Positions 1,279-56,547 of a DNA stretch of 64,000 nucleotides are shown in pieces. The stretch comes from Porphyridium purpureum (lineage: Eukaryota; Rhodophyta; Bangiophyceae; Porphyridiales; Porphyridiaceae), in the NCBI GenBank assembly GCA_008690995.1, contig VRMN01000001.1:3534001-3598000 (forward strand). The letters are read 5' to 3'. A program made the translations under genes and the position numbers. The notes under the pieces are model-generated. The model did not search any database. It was not told where the DNA came from and saw only the letters and a program-made list of their open reading frames with translations. Numbering within the stretch: position 1 is the first letter of the stretch; each line of letters opens with the position of its first letter.

Positions 1279-1285
1279 ACTGTAC
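1279..1285 (-). promoter_or_regulatory. GTACAGT motif upstream of sulfotransferase
   Basis: GGTACAGT on the minus strand, in sense with the sulfotransferase gene and about 107 bp upstream of its ATG. This is one of a series of such motifs in the window; promoter function is inferred from the recurrence only. Confidence 0.4.
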
Positions 1286-1372
1286 CGTCGAGTGTCGGCG
1301 AACGTCTCTAAATTAGACTGAACAAATCCTGCGGGGAGCGCCACGCATAGCAGAGCGGACAGTGGCGAAGGC

Positions 1373-2863
1373 TTAGAGCAGCCCTCTCGTGCTCCTCCTC
1401 CTCCTCTCAAACCCAAACGCATGCGCCTCCTCCGTCGTACAATCCAAACTGGGCACCGAGGATAAAAGACGAGCGTCAGCCGAAAACTCACCATCTTCCC
1501 GGGCGTCGATATCTACATACTCGCGACGCCCATGTCCCATGTACACCTGCCTCGGTCGACAGATCTTTAGCGCCGTTTCCTGCTGCATTTCGTTCCAGTG
1601 TGCCAACCAACCCGCCGTTCTTGCCATGGCTACAATCACCGTGAAATAATCGGAGGGAAATCCCAATATGCGCTGCGCAAGCGCCAAGTAGTAATCTGCA
1701 TTTGTGAAAACATGCCGCGTTTGAAAATAAGGATCGCCAAGAATGACATCTTCAACACGCATGGCTTTTCTCAGAAGCATGCCTTGTGCGTCGTCCCCGA
1801 AAAGCTCTTGTGCTTCGATTGCTATTTTTTTCAGCACACGCGCGCGGGGATCGTACGCCTTGAAAACAATGTGGCCAAAACCTGGGATTCTTCGCTTTTC
1901 GCTCTTCGCGGATTCTATGAATTCTGAAATAACGCTCGCATCATCCGATGGCAAGGCCTCAAGCATATCCAGGACGTGCTTTCCCACACTACCTATTCGT
2001 GCACCGTACGTACAGGCAATGGCAGTCGATAGCGCGTTGTACGGGTCGACCTTGGAACTCGCAACATGATGTAAAAGCGATGTCGCCGAAGACATTCCAA
2101 TATCTGCGAGTGCGACCAGCATGCGGTCAAAAAGTGACACAACGCGTGGATCAGGACGGTACCGTGGCTCAGACATGCGGTCCAGAAGCGCGAGAAAGTT
2201 TTCTGAGTAACTCAAATTGCCAGTAGCGTCTGGATAGTTGAGTGGACGCCCAATGCGTACTCGATATGAACACGCAGCAATTGTGGCCACTTTGCCCAGT
2301 ATCCTTACGATCTGCTTATCCCTAATTCTACGATCCTCGAACATGTTTGTAGCAACGAGGCTTGGGTTCGCCTCCGGGGCAAACGTGCTGAGCGCCGCGA
2401 GCGAGGAGACAAGAATCGTCATCGGCGGTGCGTCATAGCGGAAAGTCTTGATCTGCTCCAAGACATCTTCGTGGACGAATGTGTGGTGCATGACCATACT
2501 GTTCCACGTCTTCTGCAGCTCGCCCGACGGGAGCTCGCCATAAATTAAGAGGTATGCGACTTGCAGAAAATCGCAGCCTTCATCAACAAGCTTCTCCATA
2601 TCTATCCCGCGATAGTATAATTTTCCAGCAGCGCCATCCAAGTGCACGACGCGTGAACGTGTCAAAGCAGTGTGATGGAAGTTCGGATCGAAAACCATGA
2701 GACCGGCTTCGCTTTTCCAGCCTACAGATCTGGACACCAGGAAGCCATCCTTCCGCTCCTTCAGGTCCAGAGACCTGCCATTTTCCAGCTCGGCGTCGCC
2801 GCTCTGCTCAACAGAGCGCACGCGAAGCACCCACGCGTTGGGAGCGTCGTCCATGCGCGCCAT
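1373..2863 (-). CDS. Citrate-synthase-like protein lacking two active-site histidines
   Basis: 496 residues, close in length and pattern to the glyoxysomal/bacterial-type citrate synthases. Family hallmarks seen: YYRGIDMEKL near 83-92, the RIPGFGHIVFKAYDPR signature at 325-340 (His331, Arg340), the catalytic-type Asp390 in NADYY, and Arg415 in ARTAGW. But the two other histidines of the fold are gone: the DHE-type site reads ADIGMSS (Ile255, codon 2101-2099) and the GPLHG-type site reads GARIG (Ile290, codon 1996-1994). In pig enzyme numbering these correspond to His238 and His274. Condensation of acetyl-CoA and oxaloacetate is therefore doubtful. No PTS1 at the C-terminus (ends RGLL), no obvious PTS2 and no clear mitochondrial presequence, so the location is unclear. 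The frame is intact, so it is not a decayed gene; it may be a paralog with a regulatory or changed role. Family sure, activity doubtful. Confidence 0.85.
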   Translation of the reverse strand: MARMDDAPNAWVLRVRSVEQSGDAELENGRSLDLKERKDGFLVSRSVGWKSEAGLMVFDPNFHHTALTRSRVVHLDGAAGKLYYRGIDMEKLVDEGCDFLQVAYLLIYGELPSGELQKTWNSMVMHHTFVHEDVLEQIKTFRYDAPPMTILVSSLAALSTFAPEANPSLVATNMFEDRRIRDKQIVRILGKVATIAACSYRVRIGRPLNYPDATGNLSYSENFLALLDRMSEPRYRPDPRVVSLFDRMLVALADIGMSSATSLLHHVASSKVDPYNALSTAIACTYGARIGSVGKHVLDMLEALPSDDASVISEFIESAKSEKRRIPGFGHIVFKAYDPRARVLKKIAIEAQELFGDDAQGMLLRKAMRVEDVILGDPYFQTRHVFTNADYYLALAQRILGFPSDYFTVIVAMARTAGWLAHWNEMQQETALKICRPRQVYMGHGRREYVDIDAREDGEFSADARLLSSVPSLDCTTEEAHAFGFERRRRSTRGLL

Positions 2864-3225
2864 CTAACAATCACTCAGCACCGCTCCGCTCGCAACCTGC
2901 GAGGAATGTACAGTGTCGAAGCGATTTTCATGGCGCCGATCGCTGGGTGAAGAGCAACACATCTCGGGGCTGGGCACGAAACCGTTTGTGAATGCTTTCC
3001 GCGTACAAGGCGAAGCAATAAACCCCTGCCGGTGCTCCACTGGATGTCTGTGCGAGCGCGCGGAGATGCACGCAGGGAAAAGGCAGCTCGTTTTTGGCTG
3101 GCCACTTGCGTCGAAGTAATTCCAGGGCCGCAGCGCCGTAGTAGCGTGGAACGGCTTCGACGCAGCTGGTGCGCTTGCTCACGCGAAGAGACACAACCTT
3201 GATCCGCGTGTTTTATGTGAGAAGG
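2864..3225. other. Divergent intergenic region, citrate-synthase-like / SAMHD1-like
   Basis: About 360 bp between two divergent start codons; it should hold both promoters. The one motif I can point to is GTACAGT at 2908-2914, in sense with the SAMHD1-like gene (about 312 bp from its ATG) and only 45 bp from the other ATG. The ORFs crossing this region are low in coding character. Confidence 0.4.
2908..2914 (+). promoter_or_regulatory. GTACAGT motif in divergent promoter
   Basis: Sequence context is aatgtacagtgtcg. The 7-mer core matches the recurring motif, but here the preceding base is T instead of G, so this is a weaker example. Confidence 0.25.
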
Positions 3226-4698
3226 ATGGATCAGTCCGACATGGACGATGTACGCTCGGATGGCGGGGACGGAAGTGCGCGCCTGACCATGCCCGTGGGC
3301 GTGTCCCAGATGCACGCATCGAAGAGCAAGCTCATAAACGACAATGTGCACGGTCACTACGAAATACCCGCGTACGTCGTCGAGTGCATGGATACAGAAC
3401 ATTTTCAGAGGCTCCGAGACATCTCTCAGCTTGGCACAGCCTCGTACGTCTTTTTGGGCGCGACGCATAAGCGCTTCGCGCACAGCATTGGGACGTCACA
3501 TTTAGCTCGTGAAATGATGGCGCATCTATACAGGCACCAGTTGGGCTTTCGGCAGATTGACAACGAAAGGGAGTTCCAGGAATATTCAAGGCTTGTACAA
3601 ATTGCAGCTCTGTGTCATGATTTGGGTCATGGCCCGTTCTCGCATTTGTTCGACAACGAATTTCTCACGCGTCGAGGGGTTGCGGACGTGCCTCAACTGC
3701 ATCACGAGGCGCGCTCGCTTATGATCCTTCACGACATGATCGATTCGTACAACCTCGACTTTGATCGTGAGGATCGTGCGATCATTGGGAACATGATTGA
3801 TAATCCAGCAGAGACGCTCGGGAGACCGAGATTTTTATTCGAGATCGTAGCGAATAAGAGTTCAGGTTTGGATGTTGACAAGTTTGACTACCTTGCGCGA
3901 GATTGTCAAACTCTTGGACTGAAGTATGGATTTGACCATCAGCGTCTCATTGGCTGTTCGGCTGTCATCGACGAGCGCATTTGTTACGGCCAGAAAGAAA
4001 TCTACTCGATCTACGACATGTTTAACACGCGCTTCAAGCTGCACAAACTCGTGTACAACCACCGCGCCTCCAAGGCCATTGAATACATGATCACGGACAT
4101 CTTGCTACATGCGGATGCTCATCTCAAAATTTCGGAGAGCATAACCGACCCATCAAGTTTCATGAACTTCACGGACAGCATCATCCGGGTCATAGAGATG
4201 AGCAAAGAAGCGTCTCTAGGTGCTTCTCGGCAACTGATTCGGCGCCTCCGAAATCGAGACCTGTACAGATTTGTGGACGAGGTGCTTGTACCGGCGAACA
4301 CTGCTGACGTTTCGGAAGTCGACATTTCGACCTCGCAAGATTCCAATAGTCGGCTTCAACCCGATGATCTGATTGTGTTCAATATGAGAGCAAATTTTGG
4401 AATGCGCCAGAAAAATCCTGTCGATCATGTGCATTTCTTTCAGAACTGGGATTCTAAGAGCTCATTTCAAGTTGACAGGGCGAAGGTCAGCTATCTTCTT
4501 CCGACCCAATTTGAAGAGAAGACCATACGTCTTTACTCCAAAAAGTCGGACCCTGATTCTGTGGACGCGGCCAAGCGTGCCTTCAGGCGGTTCATCCGTT
4601 CCAATCGGATAGGATCTTTGTTCCCCAGTCCTGAAATTTCAAGCGCGGGAGCACTGAAGCGCCACAGGGTTGAAAGTGCGAATGGAAGCACACCATAG
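3226..4698 (+). CDS. SAMHD1-like HD-domain dNTP triphosphohydrolase
   Basis: 490 residues from the ATG at 3226; the frame is open further upstream but only with a GTG. The protein covers the catalytic HD core of SAMHD1: KRFAHSIG (His86), the metal-binding pair in LCHDLGHGPFSH (His131, Asp132), LHHEARS (His159/160) and LDVDKFDYLARDC (Asp218), all in the expected order and all retained. The following segment YSIYDMFNTRFKLHKLVYNH matches the family as well. No SAM domain precedes the core (only about 45 residues). Expected reaction: dNTP to deoxynucleoside plus triphosphate, which controls dNTP pools for replication and repair and restricts reverse transcription. The C-terminal part from about residue 360 is more divergent. 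Convergent with the ABHD12-like gene (111 bp between stops). Family sure; whether GTP/dNTP regulated is unknown. Confidence 0.88.
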   Translation: MDQSDMDDVRSDGGDGSARLTMPVGVSQMHASKSKLINDNVHGHYEIPAYVVECMDTEHFQRLRDISQLGTASYVFLGATHKRFAHSIGTSHLAREMMAHLYRHQLGFRQIDNEREFQEYSRLVQIAALCHDLGHGPFSHLFDNEFLTRRGVADVPQLHHEARSLMILHDMIDSYNLDFDREDRAIIGNMIDNPAETLGRPRFLFEIVANKSSGLDVDKFDYLARDCQTLGLKYGFDHQRLIGCSAVIDERICYGQKEIYSIYDMFNTRFKLHKLVYNHRASKAIEYMITDILLHADAHLKISESITDPSSFMNFTDSIIRVIEMSKEASLGASRQLIRRLRNRDLYRFVDEVLVPANTADVSEVDISTSQDSNSRLQPDDLIVFNMRANFGMRQKNPVDHVHFFQNWDSKSSFQVDRAKVSYLLPTQFEEKTIRLYSKKSDPDSVDAAKRAFRRFIRSNRIGSLFPSPEISSAGALKRHRVESANGSTP

Positions 4699-7542: not shown

Positions 7543-7885
7543 GCTTACAGAGGGCCTTGCAGGCGCGCGGATTCCAAAAGTCTCGACGCGACGTTCGTTC
7601 TTCGTGCTCCGTTCCCTTCTGGTCCTTGGCGCTGCTTTGCCACGCACAGGAGCAGATGCGCGCGGGCGAGCAAAACGCGTCGTGCATGTGACGCAGGTAC
7701 AGCGAGCCTCGTCGGGGAAAGACAAGTCGGCTTGTCGCGACGCTGGCGCCAATTTTGGAAGAAGCGTACCCTGCCACTGTACCGCTTTGCACAAGTCGCA
7801 CTGGCACGCCCGAGAGAGGGTGGGCTACCGAGTCGTGCTCCGGTCGTTCGTGCGCATGTGAAACAGCACGGCGCCCGTATTGCCG
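7543..7885. other. Divergent promoter region DMC1 / WDR6-like
   Basis: About 340 bp between start codons. The one recognisable element is GGTACAGT on the minus strand at 7776-7782, in sense with DMC1 (about 234 bp upstream) and about 104 bp from the WDR6-like ATG in the other direction. Open frames crossing the region begin only at GTG/TTG. Confidence 0.4.
7776..7782 (-). promoter_or_regulatory. GTACAGT motif, DMC1/WDR6-like divergent promoter
   Basis: Minus-strand context is GCGGTACAGTGGC. It could serve either of the two divergent genes; its sense orientation favours DMC1. Confidence 0.4.
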
Positions 7886-10800
7886 ATGCTGCGATCCGTG
7901 CACGCCGTGGCGCATCTACATGAGCAATTGCTTGCATTCGCCGCAGGCCCATACCTAACTCTATTGGAGTGTGGCTGCGCCGGCGCCTCTGCCCGTATAT
8001 TTCCGCATGGCTTTGTGATCCACGGCATCTCGCCGGTCTTGGTCACACCGGGCAAGTGGCTACTCGCTTGCTTTGGCAGTGCACTGCTACGTTTGGTAAT
8101 GGTGCAGCAGGAACAAGATGACGGCGCCTCCATCGCTGGCATAGGTCAGGACACTGACGCCGCTGAGACGGATTGTTTGGTTCTCGAGGACTGGGTGCTC
8201 AGTGCGCACTGGAGTGCCGTAGGCTCGCATTTTACCCTCACAGTCATGCTGGCACACCACCAGCTGCTTGGGTATGCAGTCCGCTGGGTAATTGACAAAC
8301 CGTCTGCTGTTTTGTACAGGCAGCGTCGTAGTACGCTCGTGGAAATCACGTGGAGCTCTGAAAATGTCGATTTGGAGTTGGCTGGCTGCTTGGGTTTATT
8401 AAATGTCAGCGGCACATTCATGGGCGATCTCGTATTTCACTGGATCGGTGATGACCGTCTGCCGCAGCATGGGAAAGTAGGATCAGCAGACGGTTGGCCA
8501 CCTGTCGAAGACAAAATTTTGTCTCCGGACGTTATAATCGAACGTGCACACGAAGGCCCTATTTTCTCAATGGCATGGGAAAAAGTACCGGCTGATTATG
8601 TATCCTTGTCCCCACCCTGCAGCGGTCGCGATGGTCATCTGTCTCATCAAGTGCTGTTCTTGCTGACTGCTGGCTACGACCGAAGCGTACGGCTCTGGCG
8701 AGTATCGGTGACGGAAGACACACAAGATGACATCTTAGATTCAAGGAAACTTTGCTGTTCTGCTGCTCGTTCCAATGCAATCCAGGAACAGGCATGTTTC
8801 CCGTCGGGCAAAGGAACAATAAGGATCCAAGTAGAACTAGTGTCCACTCACTATGAGCATACTGGGCGTGTGTGTGATGTGCAGCTCACATTGTTGTATT
8901 GTACTGAAGGGCAGAGTGCAGTCCTTGAAAGACTTGACAATGGGGAAAGACGTGAGCCCTTACTTCTGTGTACTTCTTGTGGAGAAGACCGCACTGTACG
9001 TACACATGCTTTGCACTTGAGCGATGCTTTTAGCCTCTCGAGCCTTTCTGCATGGCCGGGAGTCGAGGCGTCGGGTCGAGCTGATGCTCAGTCTTCTCCG
9101 ATTCGCCAAGTGCGGGTTTTTGTGAGTTTGCGAAGCACCGGCAATCGTGTTTTTAGACTGACCGGTAATGACAGCGGTGAAGTCCGCCTCGACTACATGC
9201 TAGAAGCTGATTTACTGAGCATGGGACAGGCGTTCAAGCTGGCGCTCTCCCAGTTGGCAGGTGCTTTGCCTCAATCATTGCGAGAGACTGTCTCGGGGCC
9301 GGCTCTCGACATCTCATCTGGTACAGGTACGAACGGGAAAGCTCCATTCGGCGGTCTTCGAGTGAGCTATCATCCAAGAAGCAGGCGCTTGAACGTGGAT
9401 CAGTCGAGCAAGCAGAATGTCCCAAAAGCCCTTCGGTTCGTGTCGGCGGAGCGCATTGTATTCACTACTTCAGATGGTTTCATATGCTGCTGTCCATGTC
9501 CAGGCCCGGAATCTGAGAGCTTTGGCTATCCCATTGCTTTCGAGGCTGATCATATTACTGTTCTGTTCCCGCTGGACCCGAGAGAGGGAAAAAGCACGTA
9601 CCGTTTCATGCAGAATTCTCTGCTTACTTTACCTGAGATTTCTTCAGGGCCTTTCTGCGGTTGCCAGTACGCAATAGCAGGGACCGCCGACGGATTCGTC
9701 GTTGCTATTTGTGTCGCTAATTCGGATCATGTGTGCTCTCAAGGGCGGCACCCATTCCATTTGCAAGTTCCGACACAGCCCGTAGCGCCTGTGATGGAAA
9801 TAATACACGGTGATGGAATGACTTTGGAATCAGAAAACTGCTTCCTATTTTGTGCAACGGATTATCTCGGCCGTCTGAATGTCTTCCGCTTGGGCTTCCG
9901 GGGCCCTGACACTGAATTCATACACATTGCCTCGCTGCACCGGAATGCTTTATCGCGTAGCAAGAGAGAGACTAGGTTCGTTAGTGCCATTTATTTGGCA
10001 CCAGTGGATTCTTTGCTTGCTGGTGATGCAGACGGGCGGGTCACTCTGTTTGCGGGCATTTTAGCGAAAGATTCTGAGGCTCGTACGAGTCAGGGCGCAC
10101 TGGAAGGACCTAGTGCCAGCAAAGAGGTCATGTCGAGCCAAATTATCGAAAGCGTAGGCGAAATAAGGCCGCTTCGATCACTGGTGTTGGTTCTCAAATA
10201 TGTTTCCCGTATGGGTCGGATTCTAGCGTCTGGTGTTGAAGGCAAGTGTCGGGCAATTCTTCTTGATCTCACTGGATTACGTGAGGCTCTTTGGGACAGA
10301 GGACCGCTAGGCTCTTCCCGACCCGCTTGTATGTCAACAGCCGATTTGCTTGAGTTTTTCTCAATGGGCGATGCTTACGACGAGCTTGGTGGTATTGAAG
10401 TAGTTCGGGATATGGTCCCCGACAAGTCACTCAGTGTCATCTCACTCGAACAAGGCCGCAGTATTGCGGCGAAACAAAAAGATACTTTTCCTCCGCGAAA
10501 TGACCTTGCATACAGACAAGATATTCCTGGCTTGGCTCGCTTCTGCCTGGGCTTTCGATCGACAGAGCTGTTGGTGATTGATTTGCAGTCGAGTGATTGT
10601 CTGCTACGGATTGAATGTGGAGGTTGGAAGCGCTCTCTGGATATTTGCGTACCAACAGGAACTTTAACGGAAATGTTGGCAGTCGTGTATTGGCGCGTGG
10701 ACTCATTTTATTTCGCTACTGCCGTTGCCCGTGCTGAGCAAGTGCCACGCATGCACATTCATCCGCGTGCGCTCACTGAATTTAAGTTTGTCAAGACTCT

Positions 10801-12196
10801 GGTACCAGGTTGTCACACGTTGCGAGTTAATTGTGCCACTCATCTCTCTTTTCGCAGTCCTGAACATCTTTTTCATGAGGGAGATGTTCACTTATTCTTG
10901 ACAGGAGGTGAGGATACGCTCATCAAGGTATGGCTCGTGCGCTTGAAAGATACGCGTTCGGGAGAAGAAGGATTCCTATGTCGAAGCCTACCGAGTGAGG
11001 ACAAGGCGGAAGAAATAGTGGAGGGCAAGAGGATTCCCATGCGTCTGGACTGCGTTCTAGTTCATGCAATTACGGAGCATTCCTCGTCCGTAAATTGCAT
11101 TTGCAATGTGACCATTTCAAGCTCAGCCTCTATATCTTTCTCAGGAGGCGGCAGCAACGAACTTTTTTGCTGGGAACTTGTCCTGCGAAAGGAATCAGAT
11201 TCTGATTCTGGAATCGTTAGATCCGGAAATGCGCGGCCTCATGTTTGGGTGACGCAGGCTGGGGCATATTCTGAAAAGTCTGTGAAGCGGGGCCAGGCGA
11301 CTCCTCGAGTCACAGCCATTGAAGCGTGGAAGAATAGCAGCGAAATCCCGAATGGCGAGAATGAAGAGGGATTGAGTTGCAGTCTTCTGGTTGGACGATC
11401 GGATGGGACAATTTCGTGGTATGAGTGTGTCTTATCGGTCGGAAAGACAAGGATCTCATGCCGTACCTGGAGGCGCTTGGCTTTATTATCCGAGGGCACG
11501 GGGTCTGTGACGCACATTCATGTCGTAGAGGTTAGAAAGGATTTGGTGCTTGCGTTTGCCGCAGACACAGGAGGATCATTTATTATTCTGCGCTGCATTT
11601 TGTCGGACAGGATCGAAGGACTCCAACTTCAGAGTAGATTTGAATCTGCTTTTCGGAGAACTGGTTTGCACGCGTCTGGAATTAACACTTTCTGCACGCT
11701 CCCACTTTCCGAAACCACACACTGCGGCTCCTGTGAAGAAGGCGAGAACGCCAAGCGCGTTGGGGGTTCTTGGCTGGTTGCTACTGGCGGCGATGACGAG
11801 CACATCGTTCTCATGCATGTACGATTGCATGAAAACTTTGACGCGGACACGCGTCACCATATTCTTGGTGCTCATGTTTGGCTCAAACTGCGATATCATT
11901 GTGCGGCAGTGACTGGACTCTCGTGGACACGGTCCTACGAAGACGAAATTTGTGTCACCAGCACAAGACGCGGCTCTTACGTAGGTACTTTGGTGTCCGT
12001 CGGCGCAGACCAGTCTATGTACCGCAGTATATTATACCGAGCGAAGGAATCGAACTGCCTTGACATCATGAAGTTGGACGATTCTGTGGGGAGCGGACGA
12101 AAGCTAAACATTCCAGATATCGCGGGCTTGTGCAATATTCTCGGTGGGGACGTGGCAATGCTTGTGTACGGAGCGGGAATTGAGCTCGTCCAGTAA
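7886..12196 (+). CDS. WDR6-like WD40 protein (tRNA 2'-O-methyltransferase cofactor family)
   Basis: 1436 residues in one uninterrupted frame from the ATG at 7886. WD-type blades are seen along the whole length, for example HEGPIFSMAWEK followed by LLTAGYDRSVRLWRVS (about 215-275), GDADGRVTLFAG near 715, LTGGEDTLIKVWLVRL near 1010 and SISFSGGGSNELFCWEL near 1085. The N-terminus (LLAFAAGPYLTLLECGC, then PHGFVIHGISPV) resembles the start of WDR6/Trm734, which in yeast and human partners the Trm7/FTSJ1 methyltransferase to modify position 34 of tRNAs. The length is greater than human WDR6 (about 1100) and fits expanded loops. The assignment rests on N-terminal resemblance and overall WD layout. 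It could be another large WD40 scaffold. Confidence 0.65.
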   Translation: MLRSVHAVAHLHEQLLAFAAGPYLTLLECGCAGASARIFPHGFVIHGISPVLVTPGKWLLACFGSALLRLVMVQQEQDDGASIAGIGQDTDAAETDCLVLEDWVLSAHWSAVGSHFTLTVMLAHHQLLGYAVRWVIDKPSAVLYRQRRSTLVEITWSSENVDLELAGCLGLLNVSGTFMGDLVFHWIGDDRLPQHGKVGSADGWPPVEDKILSPDVIIERAHEGPIFSMAWEKVPADYVSLSPPCSGRDGHLSHQVLFLLTAGYDRSVRLWRVSVTEDTQDDILDSRKLCCSAARSNAIQEQACFPSGKGTIRIQVELVSTHYEHTGRVCDVQLTLLYCTEGQSAVLERLDNGERREPLLLCTSCGEDRTVRTHALHLSDAFSLSSLSAWPGVEASGRADAQSSPIRQVRVFVSLRSTGNRVFRLTGNDSGEVRLDYMLEADLLSMGQAFKLALSQLAGALPQSLRETVSGPALDISSGTGTNGKAPFGGLRVSYHPRSRRLNVDQSSKQNVPKALRFVSAERIVFTTSDGFICCCPCPGPESESFGYPIAFEADHITVLFPLDPREGKSTYRFMQNSLLTLPEISSGPFCGCQYAIAGTADGFVVAICVANSDHVCSQGRHPFHLQVPTQPVAPVMEIIHGDGMTLESENCFLFCATDYLGRLNVFRLGFRGPDTEFIHIASLHRNALSRSKRETRFVSAIYLAPVDSLLAGDADGRVTLFAGILAKDSEARTSQGALEGPSASKEVMSSQIIESVGEIRPLRSLVLVLKYVSRMGRILASGVEGKCRAILLDLTGLREALWDRGPLGSSRPACMSTADLLEFFSMGDAYDELGGIEVVRDMVPDKSLSVISLEQGRSIAAKQKDTFPPRNDLAYRQDIPGLARFCLGFRSTELLVIDLQSSDCLLRIECGGWKRSLDICVPTGTLTEMLAVVYWRVDSFYFATAVARAEQVPRMHIHPRALTEFKFVKTLVPGCHTLRVNCATHLSFRSPEHLFHEGDVHLFLTGGEDTLIKVWLVRLKDTRSGEEGFLCRSLPSEDKAEEIVEGKRIPMRLDCVLVHAITEHSSSVNCICNVTISSSASISFSGGGSNELFCWELVLRKESDSDSGIVRSGNARPHVWVTQAGAYSEKSVKRGQATPRVTAIEAWKNSSEIPNGENEEGLSCSLLVGRSDGTISWYECVLSVGKTRISCRTWRRLALLSEGTGSVTHIHVVEVRKDLVLAFAADTGGSFIILRCILSDRIEGLQLQSRFESAFRRTGLHASGINTFCTLPLSETTHCGSCEEGENAKRVGGSWLVATGGDDEHIVLMHVRLHENFDADTRHHILGAHVWLKLRYHCAAVTGLSWTRSYEDEICVTSTRRGSYVGTLVSVGADQSMYRSILYRAKESNCLDIMKLDDSVGSGRKLNIPDIAGLCNILGGDVAMLVYGAGIELVQ

Positions 12197-17008: not shown

Positions 17009-18258
17009 GTATCCTCAATACCTTTGTAGAAAATGCTTAGGCTTTGTGAAATCGATATTTGTAAAATGGTACTTTCAACCTTCAAACTATGATGCAATAA
17101 TATAGAATGTTCAAGCAAGTCATATGCTTCGAGGACGGGAGTCACCACAGAATGTATCATCCCGAAACCATGCGGCGTTACAGAACTATTCATGTTTGCT
17201 TTTCTTTACTCACCCCTTTATTCTCTGTACCCCAGCTTTGAATTGATTGGTCAAAAATAATTGAACACAACTTTCTCCCAAATTATATAAATTCAAATTA
17301 GGGTATCCAATCGGGTCGGATTCCGTCCCGCGTATGATTCCAAATCCGTCATGGACACGTCGGGTGCTCCAGTCCAGCCCCTGTGAGATAGACAGTAAAT
17401 CAGAAAAGTCGAAGCCCTTTGGACGGAGAAACGCCAGAGTCGGAGTCGTAGGGGATTTGAGAATATATTCTTCTGAGCTTTTTCAGCTATAACGGAAATC
17501 TTGCTTGAAATACATGCAATGAGGCTTGTAGAAGTCATCACTTCAAAATAACGTCAGCCTCCAGTCTGATTCGTAAACGTCCGAGAGGGCACGTTTGGTC
17601 GGAATAAAAATCGGATTCGCTGATGATTGAAGGCAGAACGTTGAACCATAGCGAGCTCCAATCACTTTTGTTTCTATTGTTTCTTAAGGTGAACGTCCGC
17701 AAAATTATTAAGCGATCATTTTTAGGATTTTACGCGCTTTCCTTAACTTCTACGGAAGTCTCAACAATCCTGGGGGCGACGATTCCGACGCCTTGTTTTA
17801 TACGCAGTGACCTCGCTGAGGTGCCGAAATTATTCGGCTCCATGTTCCAGATCAGCATGAGCTATGTTGTCCGTTACGCCTGCTGTGCGACTGCAGAAAC
17901 CCTAACTTATAGGAACCCTAATTGAACTTAATCAATAAATTTGTCTAAAGGGCAAAACGAATGGATTTGCACACAGGTGTACAAATGCAGGGTACAGTGC
18001 ACAATCAATGTGAGCACATAATAGTAATTATACATTGCAATATAATGCAGAATTACATCACAACAATCATAAATTTGGAAGAAAAATTGCTGAATGCATT
18101 TTGCACGGTACTGCACAAAATATGGCTGCGCAGATATGAAAGACAAGTACGCGACTGCCCTCATTTGAGTTTGCTCTTTCAGGTGAAACTGGAACGTCAA
18201 TGAAGTTTTCTCACGAACTCACTATGTTTATGCCTTTCCCAAGGTGTGCTTGCACATC
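17009..18258. other. AT-rich spacer before copia copy 1
   Basis: No gene recognised. A GGTACAGTGCAC motif occurs at 17991-18002 on the plus strand with no convincing ORF downstream before the LTR. Confidence 0.4.
17992..17998 (+). promoter_or_regulatory. GTACAGT motif in gene-poor region
   Basis: A full GGTACAGTG match with no gene attached. It may be chance, a relic, or the start of a noncoding transcript. Confidence 0.15.
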
Positions 18259-18263: not shown

Positions 18264-18588
18264 TATTAAAAGGTCTGATGTATCGGGGAGTCTTTGTGAC
18301 TTGTCACTAACGCAGTTGCGTGTCCCCTTCGTCGCCCTTGCAACTAACCTTACCTTCGTCATCCGGGGACTCCGAGCCTCGGCCATCGCTAAGCTCTTCA
18401 TATAGGCAATCGTAGTGCTTTCACTAGTGAGATTGCCAACTGTACCTCCAGGGCAAAAACCCTTATTTACTATAAGTTGGAGAAATACAGAAAGTTGGAG
18501 AAATACAGAAAGTTGGAGCTGAAACATTCCCCATGGTATTACTACTTTACCTGGGGAGGGAATCTACCGAAACCCTGGATTCATAACA
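18264..18588 (-). repeat. 3' LTR of copia copy 1
   Basis: 325 bp. In element sense it has, from its 5' end, an 18-bp unit (around TTTCTGTATTTCTCCAAC) repeated about two and a half times, a TATAGTAAATAAGG stretch, then GGAGGTACAGTTGG (18445-18439), the same motif found upstream of host genes. Confidence 0.93.
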
Positions 18589-18627
18589 CTCCCACGCAGC
18601 GACAACTTTTCGTCATGCCTTCCACCT

Positions 18628-22905: not shown

Positions 22906-22909
22906 AACC
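22893..22909 (-). other. Primer-binding site of copia copy 1 (initiator tRNA-Met anticodon-arm type)
   Basis: Directly after the 5' LTR, element sense reads GGTTATGAGCCC, the complement of GGGCTCATAACC, which is the anticodon stem-loop of yeast-type initiator tRNA-Met. Priming from an internal half-tRNA fragment is known for Drosophila copia. The ATG complementary to the CAU anticodon is also the first ATG of gag-pol. Confidence 0.7.
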
Positions 22910-25979: not shown

Positions 25980-26018
25980 CTCCCACGCAGCGACAACTTT
26001 TCGTCATGCCTTCCACCT

Positions 26019-36040: not shown

Positions 36041-36125
36041 CCTCGACATAACCTTCTATGGTTATGTTGAGGGTCGTCGGAGTACAGTGAAGACTGTACC
36101 CAGTTAATTATTAATTGAATAACTG
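36041..36125. other. Cluster of three dyad symmetries
   Basis: Three inverted repeats follow each other. First, CCTCGACATAACC (36041-36053) and GGTTATGTTGAGG (36060-36072) around a 6-nt loop, pairing except for one G-T wobble. Second, GTACAGT (36082-36088) and ACTGTAC (36093-36099) around GAAG. Third, an imperfect AT-rich palindrome beginning cagttaatta and ending gaataactg (about 36101-36125). They could be hairpins of a small element, a structured RNA, or protein-binding palindromes. Confidence 0.45.
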
Positions 36126-38003: not shown

Positions 38004-38978
38004 CTAAACCTTTTCTTCCTTCATGTGTTCGATCAACGCGCTCGCACCGTTGCAGTCACTGGGGTTCTGAAATCCACCCACGATCAAGGAGGATTTGTCA
38101 TGCATGAGGAGCCGCATCAGCCCCCGCTGTGCCTGTTGCACTTTCGCTACCTGATCCATTTTCACTAGTAAGCGCACGGGCGCGGTGCCCGCAGAATCAA
38201 AGCGGGTCGAGCTGTTGGAGGCAAACGCAATGTGCCACTCGAGAATGAAAAGCATGCCTCGAATCGTGAAGGTCTTTTCCGGAGTGATGCTGTTATGATA
38301 GCACCTGTACTTCTGCACCAGTTCGCAGTGAAAAGAGTCTACGATATGCTCATCCAAGACTGAATGCGCGTCTTGGAAAAAAGACGCAAAAAGCTCCTTG
38401 GCGGTCTGATTATAGTTGGCACTCACTGCTGTGTGATCCTTTGGGGTCTCCAGCAAATTATCAAGGTAGGTGTTCATAGTTTGGAACCCATTCGATACAT
38501 TCGCTGCTGCAACCGCGAGTCCATCCTTCAGTTGTGCATTCATGGATGAATTTAGTTCTGATGAGTCATGTAGACCGCGATCGCGTTCGCCGTCTCCAGC
38601 CTCTGCGTCAGACCGAGTGACATGATGCTGATCTCCGAAGGCGCTCTGGGCGAGATCCGTAATTTTTAGAATCTGAAAAATATCCCACGGCGCTGGAACA
38701 TGAGCAGATCTTCCTGCATCTTGCAATTCACTCACATCGGAGAACACGTACTCACTTTCCGGTCCTGTTCCCTCGTCACCTTGCGAATCAGCACCGAGTT
38801 TTTCCCATTCATTCATTGCCTCCGACTCGACATCTGGGCCTTGCTCGTTCTGGTGCTCGTCTGGAGAATTTGCTTCAGACTGGACGACCACCACATCGCT
38901 CATGCTCCGATCAGCAGCACCTTGCGGCTGCGGCGGTCGGTCATCTGCGACATCGGCGCTCCCGACCACGTCTGCCAT
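38004..38978 (-). CDS. GRAM-domain protein
   Basis: 324 residues from the ATG at 38978. The first 180 residues are acidic and low-complexity. A GRAM (PH-like) domain follows at about 196-318: ELFASFFQ, then FHCELVQKYRCYH, then the strand TIRGMLFILEWHIAFASNS, ending with SLIVGGFQNPSDCNGASALI. GRAM domains bind phosphoinositides or phosphatidylserine at membrane contact sites. No transmembrane segment and no VASt sterol-transfer domain follow, so this is a short GRAM-only protein and its role is open. Divergent from the 785-aa gene and convergent with the SAP-domain gene. Confidence 0.65.
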   Translation of the reverse strand: MADVVGSADVADDRPPQPQGAADRSMSDVVVVQSEANSPDEHQNEQGPDVESEAMNEWEKLGADSQGDEGTGPESEYVFSDVSELQDAGRSAHVPAPWDIFQILKITDLAQSAFGDQHHVTRSDAEAGDGERDRGLHDSSELNSSMNAQLKDGLAVAAANVSNGFQTMNTYLDNLLETPKDHTAVSANYNQTAKELFASFFQDAHSVLDEHIVDSFHCELVQKYRCYHNSITPEKTFTIRGMLFILEWHIAFASNSSTRFDSAGTAPVRLLVKMDQVAKVQQAQRGLMRLLMHDKSSLIVGGFQNPSDCNGASALIEHMKEEKV

Positions 38979-39309
38979 TCTGCGTGCACGTCTCGACCTT
39001 GTCCGGACCACGAGCTTGCCGCTCGCGCGCGCGACGCTGGAGCACGAGTCACGCGGCTCCCAAGTGCCGCGTCGCGTCGAGCTTGGCGCCGCGTTCTCGC
39101 CGCGTCTCGGTGGCTAGTCGATGCATCCACAGCTGCTGCGCATATCGTCGCTTGCCAGAACCGTGAGGTACAGTGCGGACGGATAGGTGCAGCAGCTGGC
39201 TATTTGCCGCAGAGCTTCCATATCAGGATGACAAGTCGGTCCAACTCGAGTGGGCTTGCCGCGCGAGCGCAACCTCACGCTACGCCGTTTCTCTGCGCGG
39301 AAGCTAGCG
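38979..39309. other. Divergent promoter region, GRAM gene / 785-aa gene
   Basis: 331 bp, GC-rich. Contains GAGGTACAGTGCGG at about 39165-39178. Confidence 0.4.
39168..39174 (+). promoter_or_regulatory. GTACAGT motif upstream of the 785-aa gene
   Basis: GAGGTACAGTG, an exact consensus match, in sense and about 136 bp upstream of the ATG at 39310; about 190 bp from the GRAM gene ATG in the other direction. Confidence 0.4.
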
Positions 39310-46226: not shown

Positions 46227-48809
46227 TCAGATGCTCGCTCTAAAGGTCGCGGAAACGGGCTCAACCTCTGCCTCATCGTCAGAGCTCTCAAGAGTGTCGC
46301 TTTTCTCTTTCTGCAGACGGAGAGACCAGCTCTTGAATCGTTGTGTCCAGTATTTCTTCGTTTTGTTCTTTTGTAAAGACGCAGTCTCCAGCCAAAAATG
46401 GACTGCGAGGCTCGGATGGCGGAAATTGCACCACATGCGCAAAGCTTCCATGTACCGCCGCTTCTCATGATCTTTCAAAGATCCGACTGTGTGCCACAAC
46501 ATGAACTCGACCGAAGTAGGGTCGAGAAAGAGCAAACCGCGCTTTGTCAACAATGCCTCAGTTCCTACATGACCATAGAGGAACTTGGTCGGAACCGTTG
46601 TTACCAAGTCCGAAGCAAACACAACACGCCAGTGGCGCGGTATCTGTCGATTATACGCATCCACAAAAGCGTAATTTCCCACGCGGGGCGATCCAAATGT
46701 GTAGACGGCGACTTCATCGCGAGACAACTTCAACGCGTGCAGTAAGTCGTAAGAACACAGTGTCGCCAGAGCTCCACCGAGCGAGTGACCCGTGAGCCAC
46801 ACCGAGCGCTTTTTCTGTCTGTACAATTCACACACAACTTCAACAAGTTGCTCTGCAATGCTTAAATATGCCTTTGCAAAACCAGAGTGCACGCCGATTT
46901 TCCGCGTAAAGCGCCAAGTCTGCAAAGGCTCGGGCGATGACGACAGAAATTGTGAATCGGTCCCTCGACTGCCGCTCTTGTACTGCAGCCTAAAGCTGCT
47001 CGCAGAGCGGGCTGCGGCAGAGATATTCTTGTTCTGAGACGCACTGGGTGGTGCCTTCTCATCGCTCATTCCCAAATACGAAAACTCATCATCCATCACT
47101 TGCTCTGTGAGCGACTGTTCCAACTCGTAATCGCCGTGCTGAAAATCCGCGACAGCAAATGATATATCTGTCACCATATTCTTGGTGCTCATCGTGCCTC
47201 GAAAGCTAAGAATGATACGGGTCGGCGTAGCAAAGACGATGGCGTGTGTATCTGTTGACTCATCCGACACATGCTGAATCAACTCCGTCTCGTGCTCACC
47301 AAAGTCCGCAGGGATGCGCGGAGTTTTGCCCGTCCGTCCGTACGAAAATGCAATCCAAGCCATATTAAACATGGACAGAACATCCTCAAGAACGAACGCA
47401 CGCGAGCTGTATGGAATCCGCGATGACGCATGTGACGACGATGACGAAGTTCGAAACTTTGCGCTCGATCGATCCAGAAAATATTCCACCCGCCGTGCAC
47501 CGTCATCGCGGGGATCTGGACACGTGAACCAAAGGTAGTCGGACAGAAGTTCAGCACGCGCCGGTAAATTTGCCCATGCTTCCTGCACGACGTACGTGAG
47601 GGACAACAGATCCACCCCAATGTTGCCGTACCAGCCGAGAGAATACACGCCAAAGTTTTTCGACAAAATCCGCTGGTTGTCCTGGCCTTGTGCAAGGCCA
47701 TTGATAAGTCCCATGATAAAAGTCCATGAAATCAGATACATCGTGTGAATCAAGAAGAACCGAAAGGCGATCTGTCTGGACCGACTCGTGATGTAGTCGA
47801 GCTTGCGCAAGTGTCTCACAGTGATCCAAATCTGGGCGAACGCAAACAAAAATAAAAATAAAGTGAAAATCAGATTGATCGCCACAAATCCCTGTTGTGC
47901 TGGAGTGGAGACCGCCGAGGAATCCGCCACAATTCCAGAAAGTAGACCTGTTACACTGCTTGGAGACAGCGTGTCCGCGTAGTACAGCAACAAAGCACGT
48001 ATGGCAGTAAAACACGCGAGCGCCGTGACGTGGGGACAGAAGTCGACCCAATGTGGTTTCCGATGTTTTGGCATTCGAAAAACTTCGCTCATGCCCCAAA
48101 TGTAAACGAGCGAAAATATGTCTTCCTGAAAAATAGCCGTGAAAATGGATTGAATATTTGCACCGACTTGCGCATTGATATTGCCGCCCACATTTTCGGC
48201 GTAGAAGATCCAATCAGCAATGGGGATGTCTGCCAGACAAAAGTAGATGAGCAGTTTCGCACACCAAATGTGCTCATGCTGCAACGGGATGTGCGAACGT
48301 CGAACCATCCTGAAAAACTCGAAGCAGAAAAATGTTTGGAAAAAGAAAAGAATCGTGATGAGTATGCACGATGCAAGCTCTGAAGCGAGCGAGCGAGACA
48401 CGAGGTTTGCGGCATCGCAATTGGACTGCCAGTCCAAATTGCTTGGATCCAAGATGATATTCTTGCAAAAGAAAATGCCGCCTGTGTCAACCGTGGATGT
48501 CGTGATCACGTACACGTCCAAAATCGCGAAAAGGATTGCAATGGCAACCGCAACGGTCATCAATCGAAGCATCCACCTTATCTGCTTTGAAGTTGCCACT
48601 TCAATTTTCGAGATTTCGTGCTTATACCCCATCAGCTGTGAATTGTTCTCTTTCTCTGGACTTGGCTTCGACATGAATTTCGACTCTCGGTCCACATGTT
48701 TGGAATCTGCAGCGGCAGAGAGCACATCACCCTCCGACTTCTCTGCATGGAATAAATTTGATTCTGAGTGTCTAGAGACGCGCGCACTCACAACCTCGTG
48801 CGGTTCCAT
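46227..48809 (-). CDS. Multi-pass membrane class 3 lipase
   Basis: 860 residues from an ATG at 48809. The N-terminal half has about seven hydrophobic segments (roughly 80-103, 143-168, 182-203, 224-242, 258-278, 305-332, 347-370, with a possible further one at 394-410). The C-terminal half is a lipase class 3 domain: IVFATPTRIILSFRGT, nucleophile elbow WLTGHSLGGALATL (Ser near 675), YTFGSPRVGNYAF, the acid in ASDLVTTVP and a late histidine in DHEKRRYMEAL. The triad looks complete. A polytopic region joined to a class 3 lipase is like diacylglycerol lipases in plan, though those have four segments; similar large fusions occur in protists. Likely hydrolyses membrane acylglycerols or phospholipids. 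Confidence 0.8.
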   Translation of the reverse strand: MEPHEVVSARVSRHSESNLFHAEKSEGDVLSAAADSKHVDRESKFMSKPSPEKENNSQLMGYKHEISKIEVATSKQIRWMLRLMTVAVAIAILFAILDVYVITTSTVDTGGIFFCKNIILDPSNLDWQSNCDAANLVSRSLASELASCILITILFFFQTFFCFEFFRMVRRSHIPLQHEHIWCAKLLIYFCLADIPIADWIFYAENVGGNINAQVGANIQSIFTAIFQEDIFSLVYIWGMSEVFRMPKHRKPHWVDFCPHVTALACFTAIRALLLYYADTLSPSSVTGLLSGIVADSSAVSTPAQQGFVAINLIFTLFLFLFAFAQIWITVRHLRKLDYITSRSRQIAFRFFLIHTMYLISWTFIMGLINGLAQGQDNQRILSKNFGVYSLGWYGNIGVDLLSLTYVVQEAWANLPARAELLSDYLWFTCPDPRDDGARRVEYFLDRSSAKFRTSSSSSHASSRIPYSSRAFVLEDVLSMFNMAWIAFSYGRTGKTPRIPADFGEHETELIQHVSDESTDTHAIVFATPTRIILSFRGTMSTKNMVTDISFAVADFQHGDYELEQSLTEQVMDDEFSYLGMSDEKAPPSASQNKNISAAARSASSFRLQYKSGSRGTDSQFLSSSPEPLQTWRFTRKIGVHSGFAKAYLSIAEQLVEVVCELYRQKKRSVWLTGHSLGGALATLCSYDLLHALKLSRDEVAVYTFGSPRVGNYAFVDAYNRQIPRHWRVVFASDLVTTVPTKFLYGHVGTEALLTKRGLLFLDPTSVEFMLWHTVGSLKDHEKRRYMEALRMWCNFRHPSLAVHFWLETASLQKNKTKKYWTQRFKSWSLRLQKEKSDTLESSDDEAEVEPVSATFRASI

Positions 48810-49427
48810 CTCAATACTCTACACCGCGGTGCAACCCTGCCGACAGGTGCTCGCCTTCTACCAGGGAGGTCTCAGCGACCGCGCGCCTGGCTCGACACAT
48901 CCGGCTGGCGCGGGCGAGAAAGTGAGCTCCGCGAGACGCGCCAGCAAATGCGCAATAGACAAAGATTCCAGGACAGCGGGGCAAGGGACTGGCGCGTATG
49001 AAGCTTTTCTCTTCTCCACCCCCCCCCCTGCGCTCTGCACGCGCCCTCCCGCAGCGTGTGCTGGGACCCGTCGAATTTACTGGGAACATTCCACTCCCTG
49101 GCGAAAAGAAACTCGAACCACTGTACACAGTGCGTTGGTTGAAAATGAATCGCGAGCGCGTGGGCAAACACAACATGTCTCGAAATTCTGGTCACGAGGC
49201 GCAGGAAGATACCGCACGAGTGTTGTTTATTGCACCAGAAACGCAGTCACAGACGCTGCGCTTCTATCTACTCACCCGGGAAAAAAATTTTACTCCAAGT
49301 CTGCAGAAAACGCGGTGGTCTCGGAAACCGCAACGCGCGACAGCACAGCCCGCTCCACGAGTCGCTTTCAAGAGCCAACTCTGTTCCAGATACCCTTCTT
49401 TCGATGACACTGTCAGCATCATCAATC
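48810..49427. other. Intergenic region between tandem minus genes (lipase promoter, SEC14 3' end)
   Basis: About 620 bp. Contains a C-run near 49020 and ACTGTACACAGTG at 49120-49132, i.e. GTACAGT on the minus strand in sense with the lipase and about 311 bp upstream of its ATG. Open frames on the plus strand here run into the SEC14 gene antisense and are not accepted. Confidence 0.4.
49120..49126 (-). promoter_or_regulatory. GTACAGT motif upstream of lipase
   Basis: Minus-strand context is CTGTGTACAGTGG. It lacks the preceding GG of the best matches and lies further upstream than most. Confidence 0.25.
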
Positions 49428-50435: not shown

Positions 50436-50764
50436 AAATCGGATGCCGCAGCAAGACGGCGAATCAGCACAGCGGCAGCAAGCATGCCGCGCACGATCCC
50501 CGCGTCCAGCGGTTCAGTGATCGTGCGCCGAGTACAGTTCGACGCCGCGAGTGGCGGTACAGTGACTGACGAATTTTCCATGTCACCGCGCCGGGGCTGC
50601 CGGCCGAGGTGGCCGTTTCCGTCGCGCTGCCAAACGTTTGGTGCAGCTGTGCGCCCATTGACTCACATTCAGACCGCCGCACACCATCATCGAGTCCCGT
50701 GCGTTGCTTGCAGTGAAAGCCGCTGGTACCTGTGCCGGGCGGCTGTTGAGCAGAGTCGTTGGAG
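50436..50764. other. Divergent promoter region SEC14 / PRPP synthetase
   Basis: 329 bp with two GTACAGT copies 25 bp apart at 50532 and 50557, both on the plus strand. Confidence 0.45.
50532..50563 (+). promoter_or_regulatory. Two GTACAGT motifs upstream of PRPP synthetase
   Basis: GAGTACAGTTC at 50530-50540 and GCGGTACAGTGAC at 50554-50566, both in sense with PRPP synthetase, about 202-230 bp upstream of its ATG and about 100-125 bp from the SEC14 ATG. Confidence 0.4.
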
Positions 50765-53946: not shown

Positions 53947-54265
53947 GGCGCCTCTCACCCAGGGCTGCGGAACGGGCGCGCGGGCGGCTTCAAGCTGTTC
54001 CCACGTGCTCCGCGGCCTCACACGTCCACCCCCTGCACACGGCGGCTTCCCAGACGCAGATGGTCGGCGTCCTCTCCAGTACAGCTCTCACGTGCACTGT
54101 ACCTCTGCGCCCCGCTGTTTGCTGCGGTAGCAGCAGGGCAGCGGGAGTGCGATGCTTCTTGGCTTCGGCAACGCAGTCTGTTGACACGCACGGAGCCGAC
54201 GGCGCCTGCATGTACGCATCGCGGTCGTGAAGAGGGAAAAGCTGACATCACACTCGACTCCAAGA
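53947..54265. other. Divergent promoter region UTP18 / PPR
   Basis: 319 bp with the motif GAGGTACAGTGCACG on the minus strand at about 54090-54104 and a related GTACAGC on the plus strand near 54080. Confidence 0.45.
54096..54102 (-). promoter_or_regulatory. GTACAGT motif, UTP18/PPR divergent promoter
   Basis: Exact GAGGTACAGTG on the minus strand, in sense with UTP18 about 150 bp upstream of its ATG, and about 164 bp from the PPR ATG. Confidence 0.4.
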
Positions 54266-56476
54266 ATGGCGCGGAGCGCGGCGTTTGTCTCCGTAACTCT
54301 GTTCGAGCGCACACGGAGAACAGAATCAGAATCCTGGCGCGGCTGGCGCATACCTGGCGCCGAGGGGAAGAAACGCTCTGCAGCACATTGCTGCTCGAGC
54401 CGAATGCAGGCAGCATCAGACTCGAGTGATTCTTCTTCTCAATTTCCGAAATTTCAAAGCTTTGTTGAAGGCATTGCATACAAACAGAATCACGGACGTG
54501 GGAAAGCTGCGACCTTTGAGGAGGCGTCCTCCCGACTAGACGAACAGTCCTTTGGCCGGGGAGGCATTGGCCAGGCCACCTCCTCAAGGAAGAGGGTCGT
54601 GTCATCCCTAACTACGCCGGCGGTGGACGAGTACGAAAGTGATCTCGAATCGCTCCGGGAGAAATCGACAACCTCGGCATCGACACCCGTTGCGAAGGAG
54701 TCGAAGAGCGTTATGCAGTCGCTGTACAGAAAGGGCCGATTCAAAGAAGCGTTGGAGTATTTTGAGAGCAAGGCAGCGGAGGGTAAAGCCGATAAGTACG
54801 CGTTCAACATGGCAATGGCCATCCTCATGAAGAGCGGGGAGCCCGAAGCAGTCAAGCAACTGTACCAGCGCATGAAAGAGTCTCGGGTACCACCGTCGAA
54901 TGTCACTTTCACTACGCTTGTACAAGCAATCGGAGCTGAAGGAGGAAGCAACTTGGACGAGGTCTTTGCATGTCTCGATGAAGTAGAAATGATGGGCGTG
55001 GCTCCTTCGCTGCAAATGTACAATGCGATGCTTTTTATCGCCTTTCGGACGAAATCAATGGTTAACATTACTCGCGTTTTGGGGGAAATGCGAGCTGCTG
55101 CACTGCTGCCGGACGCAGTCACGCAGTCGATATTCTTTGAGGGCTTGCGAAAAATTGGGCGCGTGGACCAGGCGCTGAGCCTGATGCAGTTGCTGTCTGC
55201 AGAATTGGGTGTACGACCAAATCAGGCGATGTACACGGGATTGATCAGCGTGTGTGTAGAAACGAATCGGCTCAGCGAAGCGATCAAATATATGCATGAG
55301 GCACAGGACAATGGCATCCAGGTCCTCGGGAACTCCTACAAATCGGTTTTGAATGCGTGCATCAAGGCGCAACGCACTTCTTTGGTATCAGACGTGTTTG
55401 AGGACGTGAGAAAACATGCCCCTAATCTTCTAGATGAAGCCATTTACGCAATCTTGATCGAAGCACATGGTACGGAGCGACGACTAGGCGAGAGCTTTTT
55501 GTACTTTCGCGAAATGCAAGCTAGGAATATTCGGCCCACTCTTCGATCATTCAAGGCCTTGATGAAGGCGTGTGCGCAAGCTGGTGCCACGGATCTGTGC
55601 TTTGGGCTCGTGGACGACATGAAAAAGCTGAACTTGACGCCTGATTACAGGATGTTCTCGCTTTTGATTCAGGCTTGCGGGCGAAGAAAGGAACTTTCGC
55701 GGGGACTGAAAGTTCTTCGTCTGATGGAAGAGCAAGGCGTTCAACCACTTGCCAAGACGTTCAACTCGCTGATCAACGCTGCCGGTGCAGCTGGCGAGTT
55801 AGACACGGCGTTCAATTTTTACGATGCCATGGTGCGATCTGGCGTAGAACCGGATCAGTACACGATGAATGTTCTTCTCGGTGCATGCGTGGAAGCGAAA
55901 GATAGCGCTCGGGCGTTGAAGCTATTCGAGACCATGAAACAGGACTGCCAGCAACACACTACTGCATTGACGTATAATTTGATGCTCAAAACAGCCATCC
56001 AGGAAAAGAATCTGGACCGCGCTTTGAAGTTCTTGAATGAACTGAAGGAAAGTGACATCAAGCCCACTCGCGTCACGTACAACTCGGTGATGACCGTGTG
56101 CTGTCAGGTTGGCAATGCACTAGTGGCGGAAACTTTGTTCAAGGAGATGCAGGAAGCAGGCCTTACGCCAGACGCTGTGAGCTACACGATTTTTCTCAAG
56201 GCTCTGGCTGGGAACGCTTCGTTGAGTGCTGAATTTGCGGAAGTATTCGCAGAATCCCAGAGAAGAGGGCTTGTTATTTCTGTCGGGCAGGTATTCAAGA
56301 CCGTTGTCCAGTGCAAGAGCTTTTGTCATCTTCGGGCGGTAAAAGACGCGAGTGTGCGCGTGCGCCAGGTCATTGATCCAGACGTTATCGCGGCCTGTTG
56401 CACCGGGCTGGTGGAGGCTGGTGAGACGACGCTAGCGAACGAGTTCCGAGCATACTTGAGCAGTTTCGTTGAGTAG
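54266..56476 (+). CDS. P-class pentatricopeptide repeat (PPR) protein
   Basis: 736 residues from the ATG at 54266. The N-terminus MARSAAFVSVTLFERTRR is basic, hydroxylated and free of acids for 15 residues, as in an organelle presequence. From about residue 145 to 690 there are roughly fourteen 35-residue repeats, for example AFNMAMAILMKSGEPEAVKQ, TYNLMLKTAIQEKNLDRALKF, TFNSLINAAGAAGELDTAFNF, VTYNSVMTVCCQVGNALVAET. All are P-type; I see no E, DYW or SMR domain. Such proteins bind specific organelle RNAs for stability, processing or translation. The target and the organelle cannot be told. Followed 204 bp later by the WDR12-like gene on the same strand. Confidence 0.9.
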   Translation: MARSAAFVSVTLFERTRRTESESWRGWRIPGAEGKKRSAAHCCSSRMQAASDSSDSSSQFPKFQSFVEGIAYKQNHGRGKAATFEEASSRLDEQSFGRGGIGQATSSRKRVVSSLTTPAVDEYESDLESLREKSTTSASTPVAKESKSVMQSLYRKGRFKEALEYFESKAAEGKADKYAFNMAMAILMKSGEPEAVKQLYQRMKESRVPPSNVTFTTLVQAIGAEGGSNLDEVFACLDEVEMMGVAPSLQMYNAMLFIAFRTKSMVNITRVLGEMRAAALLPDAVTQSIFFEGLRKIGRVDQALSLMQLLSAELGVRPNQAMYTGLISVCVETNRLSEAIKYMHEAQDNGIQVLGNSYKSVLNACIKAQRTSLVSDVFEDVRKHAPNLLDEAIYAILIEAHGTERRLGESFLYFREMQARNIRPTLRSFKALMKACAQAGATDLCFGLVDDMKKLNLTPDYRMFSLLIQACGRRKELSRGLKVLRLMEEQGVQPLAKTFNSLINAAGAAGELDTAFNFYDAMVRSGVEPDQYTMNVLLGACVEAKDSARALKLFETMKQDCQQHTTALTYNLMLKTAIQEKNLDRALKFLNELKESDIKPTRVTYNSVMTVCCQVGNALVAETLFKEMQEAGLTPDAVSYTIFLKALAGNASLSAEFAEVFAESQRRGLVISVGQVFKTVVQCKSFCHLRAVKDASVRVRQVIDPDVIAACCTGLVEAGETTLANEFRAYLSSFVE

Positions 56477-56516
56477 TGGCAGGCACTGGTGCCCTCACTG
56501 AGTCTTCCGGAAGCAT

Positions 56517-56547
56517 ACTGTACTATGAGGTACAGTATAAGTACAGT
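56517..56547. promoter_or_regulatory. Triple GTACAGT/ACTGTAC cluster upstream of WDR12
   Basis: Within 31 bp: ACTGTAC at 56517-56523, GGTACAGT at 56529-56536 and GTACAGT at 56541-56547, the last two 11 bp apart in direct order and in sense with WDR12 (134-151 bp upstream of its ATG). It is the densest group in the window and lies only 40 bp after the PPR stop. Confidence 0.45.

Follow-up and report, generated by a model that had tools for sequence, protein, structure and literature searches.

GTACAGT in Porphyridium purpureum: a frequent proximal-promoter motif and candidate binding site of an abundant DNA-binding protein

In a stretch of 64,000 nucleotides from the red alga Porphyridium purpureum (contig VRMN01000001.1, positions 3,534,001 to 3,598,000; here called the window), the 7-mer GTACAGT recurs upstream of genes. 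We have found that this word is enriched close to predicted gene starts in the window and along a sampled contig, and that its extended forms exceed their reversed controls in genome-wide counts. Its enrichment, its position, its clustering, its tight 7-bp core and the avoidance of closely packed pairs are all observed directly. From these features we consider GTACAGT a good candidate for the DNA site of a single protein, abundant and sequence-specific, and it is likely to be such a site. It would be used in proximal promoters, often in homotypic clusters and in both orientations, the sense one being modestly preferred.

Genome-wide counts are based on an assembly of 22,164,627 bases in 46 contigs, in which the window belongs to contig C43. 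Two phycobilisome linker genes of this assembly, reached with profile PF00427, agree with chains of PDB entry 6kgx, the phycobilisome of P. purpureum: LRC3 is identical in all 498 of 498 aligned residues, and LRC2 aligns with chain 6kgx_b8 over residues 1–490. The genome is on these grounds very probably that of P. purpureum. The main sample consisted of the window and 20 stretches of 10 kb (L009–L028), one per 100 kb along contig C1, giving 264 kb. Genes were called with an open reading frame (ORF) and dicodon gene finder, which is blind to introns and misses small genes; the predicted starts are approximate and each distance carries an error. It gave 95 predicted genes in the 264 kb. Two of them are ORFs of retrotransposons and three are incomplete at the 5′ end; without these five there are 90. 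Three further genes with a cut upstream region were left out of the per-gene table, which holds 87 (70 from C1 and 17 from the window). The promoter counts leave the retrotransposon zone out, and one site in a divergent spacer may count for two genes. Since the window was picked for its motif, rates are given for C1 alone where possible. Eight stretches chosen by the motif (L001–L008) were kept out of all counts; in seven of them no predicted gene contains the chosen site. The reversed word TGACATG was the control for counts and pairs, and Pfam scans had an E limit of 1e-3 for some gene sets and 1e-8 for others.

The two strands of the window together contain 26 copies of GTACAGT, compared with a mean of 3.0 (SD 1.72, largest 8) in 100 dinucleotide shuffles, none of which reached 26. 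The preliminary description of the window had put the chance expectation at about eight, which these shuffles show to be too high. All 17 of the sites that it listed outside genes are exact matches; of its three positions in coding sequence one was right and two were off, by 1 and 3 bases (they are 58117 and 62568), and it overlooked six of the 26 sites (8993, 14676, 18439, 23085, 25830 and 30476). Site 8993 is inside the predicted coding sequence 7886–12196, and 18439, 23085, 25830 and 30476 are within the long terminal repeats (LTRs) of two near-identical retrotransposons.

Within 500 bp upstream of the predicted starts GTACAGT is the top 7-mer, with 48 sites in 34.2 kb where 3.2 are expected. 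Elsewhere in the 264 kb, coding sequence (149 kb) has 20 sites and all other sequence (66 kb) has 25, and the density in promoters is ~10 times that in coding sequence. With simple repeats set aside, GGTACAGT is the first-ranking 8-mer of the same sample (50 found, 5.8 expected), and genome-wide GAGGTACAGTG is found 312 times compared with 22 for its reversed word. The gene-proximal placement described earlier is therefore confirmed both in the window and across the 264 kb, and the 20 evenly spaced C1 stretches together with the genome-wide counts bear out the idea of a widespread promoter-associated element. At least one site is present within 500 bp of 25 of the 70 genes in the C1 stretches and of 12 of the 17 in the window. 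The genome-wide share is perhaps a fifth to a third, the sample being richer in GGTACAGT than the genome, so that motif shares taken from it run high.

The distribution of sites with distance has a peak at −101 to −200 from the ATG (31 sites, 18 sense and 13 antisense), and the last 100 bp are nearly empty (no sense and 2 antisense sites). The nearest site of each gene is 51–494 bp from its ATG. By type of spacer, the 24 divergent ones have 34 sites, the 28 tandem ones 21 and the three around the retrotransposons 11; a further 12 are in the 38 end pieces, and the 19 convergent spacers of the 264-kb sample have none. The reversed word has no comparable pattern of position or spacer.

Over the last 100–125 bp ahead of the ATG the sense strand is rich in purines (G ~0.37 and C ~0.23 at −1 to −100), and at −1 to −150 of the 87 genes GAGAGA occurs 58 times and CTCTCT not once. 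With 23 genes aligned on the motif, the GC skew is ~−0.1 upstream, passes zero at the motif and climbs to +0.34 at 80–99 bp downstream; at matched distances in genes without the motif it goes from ~0.0–0.1 to +0.27. The skew of the leader and its rise from the motif suggest that the leader is transcribed and that the motif would coincide with the start region or immediately precede it. In gene calling, the purine-rich leader also serves well to mark the strand.

The sites are frequently clustered. With the two copies no more than 30 bp apart, the genome-wide totals are 890 for direct, 245 for inverted and 303 for everted pairs, compared with 10, 4 and 1 for the reversed word. Among the matches listed, some of which are tandem arrays or transposon copies, the commonest spacer is 2 bp in the first 100 direct pairs (17 of 100), 3–5 bp in the inverted pairs (22 of 50) and 6–7 bp in the everted pairs (13 of 50). 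Genome-wide, spacers of 0–1 are found in 3 of the 890 direct pairs, where uniform spacing over 0–30 would give ~57, and spacers of 0–4 in 4 of the 303 everted pairs, all of them with a spacer of 4, where ~49 would be expected on the same basis. Homotypic clusters with a steric-like minimum spacing of this kind are what would be expected of a promoter site for a ubiquitous factor. Because tightly packed pairs are almost missing, we infer that the bound protein would cover ~9–10 bp, reaching ~2 bp past the 5′ end of the core.

The consensus is short. In the 73 host noncoding sites C is disfavoured at −3 (5 sites), A or G is preferred at −2 (56), G at −1 (40) and G or T at +1 (58), with weak departures only at positions beyond these, and the best form of the motif is GAGGTACAGTG or GAGGTACAGTT. 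Single substitutions inside the core occur in at most eight noncoding copies each, compared with 40 for GGTACAGT, giving a tight core of 7 bp. Another word, TAGTGTAC, is enriched in promoters too (6 found, 0.3 expected); two of its eight copies in the 264 kb continue into GTACAGT and it is perhaps a variant site.

Several observations weigh against a promoter site and have to be set beside this evidence. The gene starts are ORF-based predictions. The genome-wide excess of GGTACAGT over its reversed control is only 2.5-fold (2375 and 945), and the reversed word is itself the rarer, so that the pair controls are lowered too. The density of GGTACAGT is 0.16/kb in the C1 stretches, 0.28/kb in the window and 0.107/kb in the genome, the C1 stretches being ~1.5 times as rich as the genome, and the share of motif-bearing genes differs between window (12 of 17) and C1 (25 of 70) with p 0.013. 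Position is broad, the nearest site being at 100–200 bp in 17 of 37 genes; 20 of the 93 host sites are inside predicted coding sequence, and several are more than 1 kb from any predicted start. In one of the eight stretches chosen by the motif the chosen site is within a long ORF; a direct GTACAGT pair within a long ORF, at L001:1492–1510, is an exception to the promoter rule.

The sites of the window, with their strands and surroundings, are as follows.

1279–1285, minus strand: GTACAGT, sense, 113 bp upstream of predicted gene 3–1172 (minus) in a single-target spacer
2908–2914, plus strand: GTACAGT in a divergent spacer, antisense at 51 bp to citrate synthase 1373–2863 (minus) and sense at 318 bp to HD-domain gene 3226–4698 (plus)
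7776–7782, minus strand: GGTACAGT in a divergent spacer flanked by a Rad51/DMC1-type gene and gene 7886–12196, antisense at 110 bp to the latter
17992–17998, plus strand: GGTACAGT a short way outside the first retrotransposon, without an assigned host gene
18439–18445, minus strand: GTACAGT in LTR ~18273–18584 of the first, apparently Copia-like, retrotransposon
23085–23091, minus strand: GTACAGT in the other LTR (~22919–23230) of the first element, sense, 180 bp before the ORF start at 22905
25830–25836, minus strand: GTACAGT in LTR ~25661–25975 of the second, near-identical element
30476–30482, minus strand: GTACAGT in the other LTR (~30307–30621) of the second element, sense, 180 bp before the ORF start at 30296
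34073–34079, minus strand: GAGGTACAGTG in a spacer where no gene is predicted
34712–34718, plus strand: GGTACAGT in the same gene-free spacer as 34073
36082–36099, plus strand at 36082 and minus strand at 36093: inverted GTACAGT pair with a 4-bp spacer
37178–37184, plus strand: AGGTACAGTG upstream of the SAP-domain gene of the preliminary description, which was not called by the gene finder here
39168–39174, plus strand: GAGGTACAGTG in divergent spacer 38979–39309, sense at 142 bp to the gene for a 785-residue protein and antisense at 196 bp to 38004–38978 (minus)
49120–49126, minus strand: GTACAGT, sense at 317 bp to lipase gene 46227–48809 (minus)
50532–50563, plus strand: direct pair (50532 and 50557) in a divergent spacer, antisense at 128 and 103 bp to a CRAL-TRIO gene and sense to the PRPP synthetase gene, 437 and 412 bp from its predicted start at 50969 and closer if translation begins at an upstream ATG
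54096–54102, minus strand: GAGGTACAGTG, sense at 156 bp to a WD40 gene (named UTP18 earlier) and antisense at 308 bp to a PPR gene
56517–56547: cluster of three, 56517 antisense and 56530 and 56541 sense, in the tandem spacer before WD40 gene 56681–58162 (named WDR12 earlier)

Some of the names first given to these genes go further than the profile searches. Pfam finds WD40 repeats only in the genes called WDR12 and UTP18, and for the protein called a sulfotransferase, apparently that predicted at 3–1172 (minus), no Pfam family passes the limit of E ≤ 1e-3.

The window was originally described as containing a candidate oriented core-promoter element, a directional signal by which the general initiation machinery would fix the start site some constant distance away. 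The location of the motif just upstream of the leader is as such an element would have it, and there is some sense bias. Where a site has a single possible target gene, 15 of those within 500 bp are sense and 6 antisense (p 0.08), and at any distance the numbers are 22 and 16; with every site up to 250 bp taken together, 20 of 36 are sense (p 0.62). Genome-wide, where the direction of the leader was marked by GAGAGAG starting 21–81 bp after the core, forward-strand matches before GA-rich leaders are 101 sense and 57 antisense (p 0.0006; controls 9 and 8), counts that may still include clustered motifs and transposon copies. The raw totals from both strands (312 and 130) were not used because the reverse strand counts one motif before a GA repeat many times. 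On contigs C1–C13, for which the lists of matches are complete and were counted by eye, there are 57 sense and 39 antisense motifs; the removal of duplicates leaves 54 and 37 loci (p 0.09), nine leaders have both kinds, and those with a single kind are 45 sense and 28 antisense (p 0.06). Counting by position and strand thus gives enrichment by position, relative to the predicted starts of the 264 kb, and for strand at most a modest sense bias of 1.4–1.8:1, which is probably a preference and not a rule. Strict orientation relative to transcription is seen neither at −101 to −200, where both strands are used (18 sense and 13 antisense), nor at the single-target sites within 500 bp. Inverted and everted clusters are common, the nearest sites range over 51–494 bp and a minority of genes has the motif. 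In the window itself, the site at single-target loci had been said to be always in sense, and 56517 is antisense to its sole possible target, with 56530 and 56541 sense. A directional core element is improbable on this evidence.

A site belonging to one regulon, such as ribosome biogenesis, would account for its presence at the two WD40 genes and the PRPP synthetase gene of the window, and is unlikely when the wider gene list, which does not support it, is taken into account. Of the 25 motif-bearing C1 genes, every one of which was run against Pfam, 20 have a family, with mixed functions (HSP90, Sec24, MutS, RecQ, P450, carbonic anhydrase, Cpn60, Cox11, Cse1, polyphosphate kinase and others). 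The C1 genes without the motif, of which 39 of 45 were scanned and 24 have a family, are likewise mixed. With 16 of the 17 window genes also scanned, no single pathway stands out by Pfam family among the motif-bearing genes of this small sample. That the word is a remnant of dispersed transposable elements or repeats is suggested by the two LTR retrotransposons of the window (~18270–23230 and 25661–30621), both Copia-like as judged by eye from the translated ORF. They are 99.9% identical and the LTR pairs are 100% and 99.7% identical, so that they are apparently recent insertions, and each LTR contains GTACAGT, in sense and 180 bp before the element ORF. Some genome-wide pair matches also recur ~6–8 kb apart with identical letters, which suggests that other LTR families carry GTACAGT as well. 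A repeat would, however, be expected to show similarity beyond the word, and the 73 host noncoding sites have little preference past −3 to −1 and +1; the empty convergent spacers argue against it too, and we regard this origin for the host sites as very improbable. Equally hard to credit is a signal acting in the RNA of the 5′ leader, as a splice donor or in translation. The word does begin with GT and is upstream of the ATG, but both strands are used and the last 100 bp before the ATG, with two antisense sites and no sense site, are nearly empty.

A second promoter word, GTTTGGCG with CCAAACCG, at first seemed strongly oriented and was discarded when 13 of its copies proved to form one 8-bp tandem array of GTTTGGCG, L017 1895–1998; the array is in a divergent promoter near a cytochrome P450 start at 2071. 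Separately, L029:1417–2175, found with profile PF00502, encodes a phycobilisome-domain protein only distantly like allophycocyanin alpha, which is possibly, from its sequence, a diverged phycobiliprotein-like protein.

Returning to a site for an abundant DNA-binding protein, we would expect a protein with a footprint of ~9–10 bp to bind GTACAGT, mostly 100–200 bp ahead of the ATG and immediately before the point where the purine-rich leader begins. Its binding would promote transcription, either by making the promoter accessible or by bringing in the initiation machinery. With three fingers, a C2H2 protein contacts ~9 bp, which fits the footprint deduced from the spacing. A C2H2 zinc finger is therefore our guess for the protein, made more tentatively than the site itself from the size of the footprint and the abundance of the family. 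Proteins of the MYB and TALE families may be alternatives. Table 3 of PMC4827209 gives 199 transcription factors for P. purpureum, with C2H2 as the largest family (60), 23 two-repeat MYB, 9 TALE and no SBP proteins. A bolder idea, possible if rather doubtful, is that GTACAGT is one of the chief elements by which promoters are defined in a red algal lineage: a factor of its own would open, and through the sense bias partly orient, a fifth to a third of the nuclear promoters, doing TATA/Inr-like work, and LTR retrotransposons would have taken the same element over.

Literature searches found no description of a GTACAGT promoter element, though a mention inside full texts remains possible. In red algal promoter work, plant elements were predicted with PlantCARE for Hsp20 genes (PMC8966773), and work with yellow fluorescent protein in P. 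purpureum used whole upstream fragments of 500–1500 bp as putative promoters (PMC10866757). A compact and frequent site would make promoter architecture directly testable in a transformable red alga, would serve as bait for the factor and would help in the making of smaller promoters. As the landing site of a factor, GTACAGT would also ease the study of red algal gene starts.

Parts of the word are shared with known sites. TALE homeodomain sites are of the TGACAG type and MYB sites of the CNGTT type, and both have letters (ACAG or CAGT) in common with the 3′ half of GTACAGT. The difference is that the GTAC half is needed here; moreover, +1 is G in 33 and T in 25 of the 73 sites, so that CAGTT is not required. 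The SBP/CRR1 element of green algae and plants is GTAC, a core common to both. GTACAGT differs in requiring the AGT extension, and no SBP protein is entered for P. purpureum in Table 3 of PMC4827209. A profile search for the SBP domain (PF03110) gave no match here, but control genomes were equally without a match. The closest parallels include metazoan sites: DRE, M1BP motif 1 and ZNF143 sites are promoter-proximal motifs of ubiquitous sequence-specific factors. GTACAGT is a different word, is red algal and has a factor that is only predicted. It resembles them in being a short, tight word found at many promoters of mixed function, near the start region, on either strand and in clusters.

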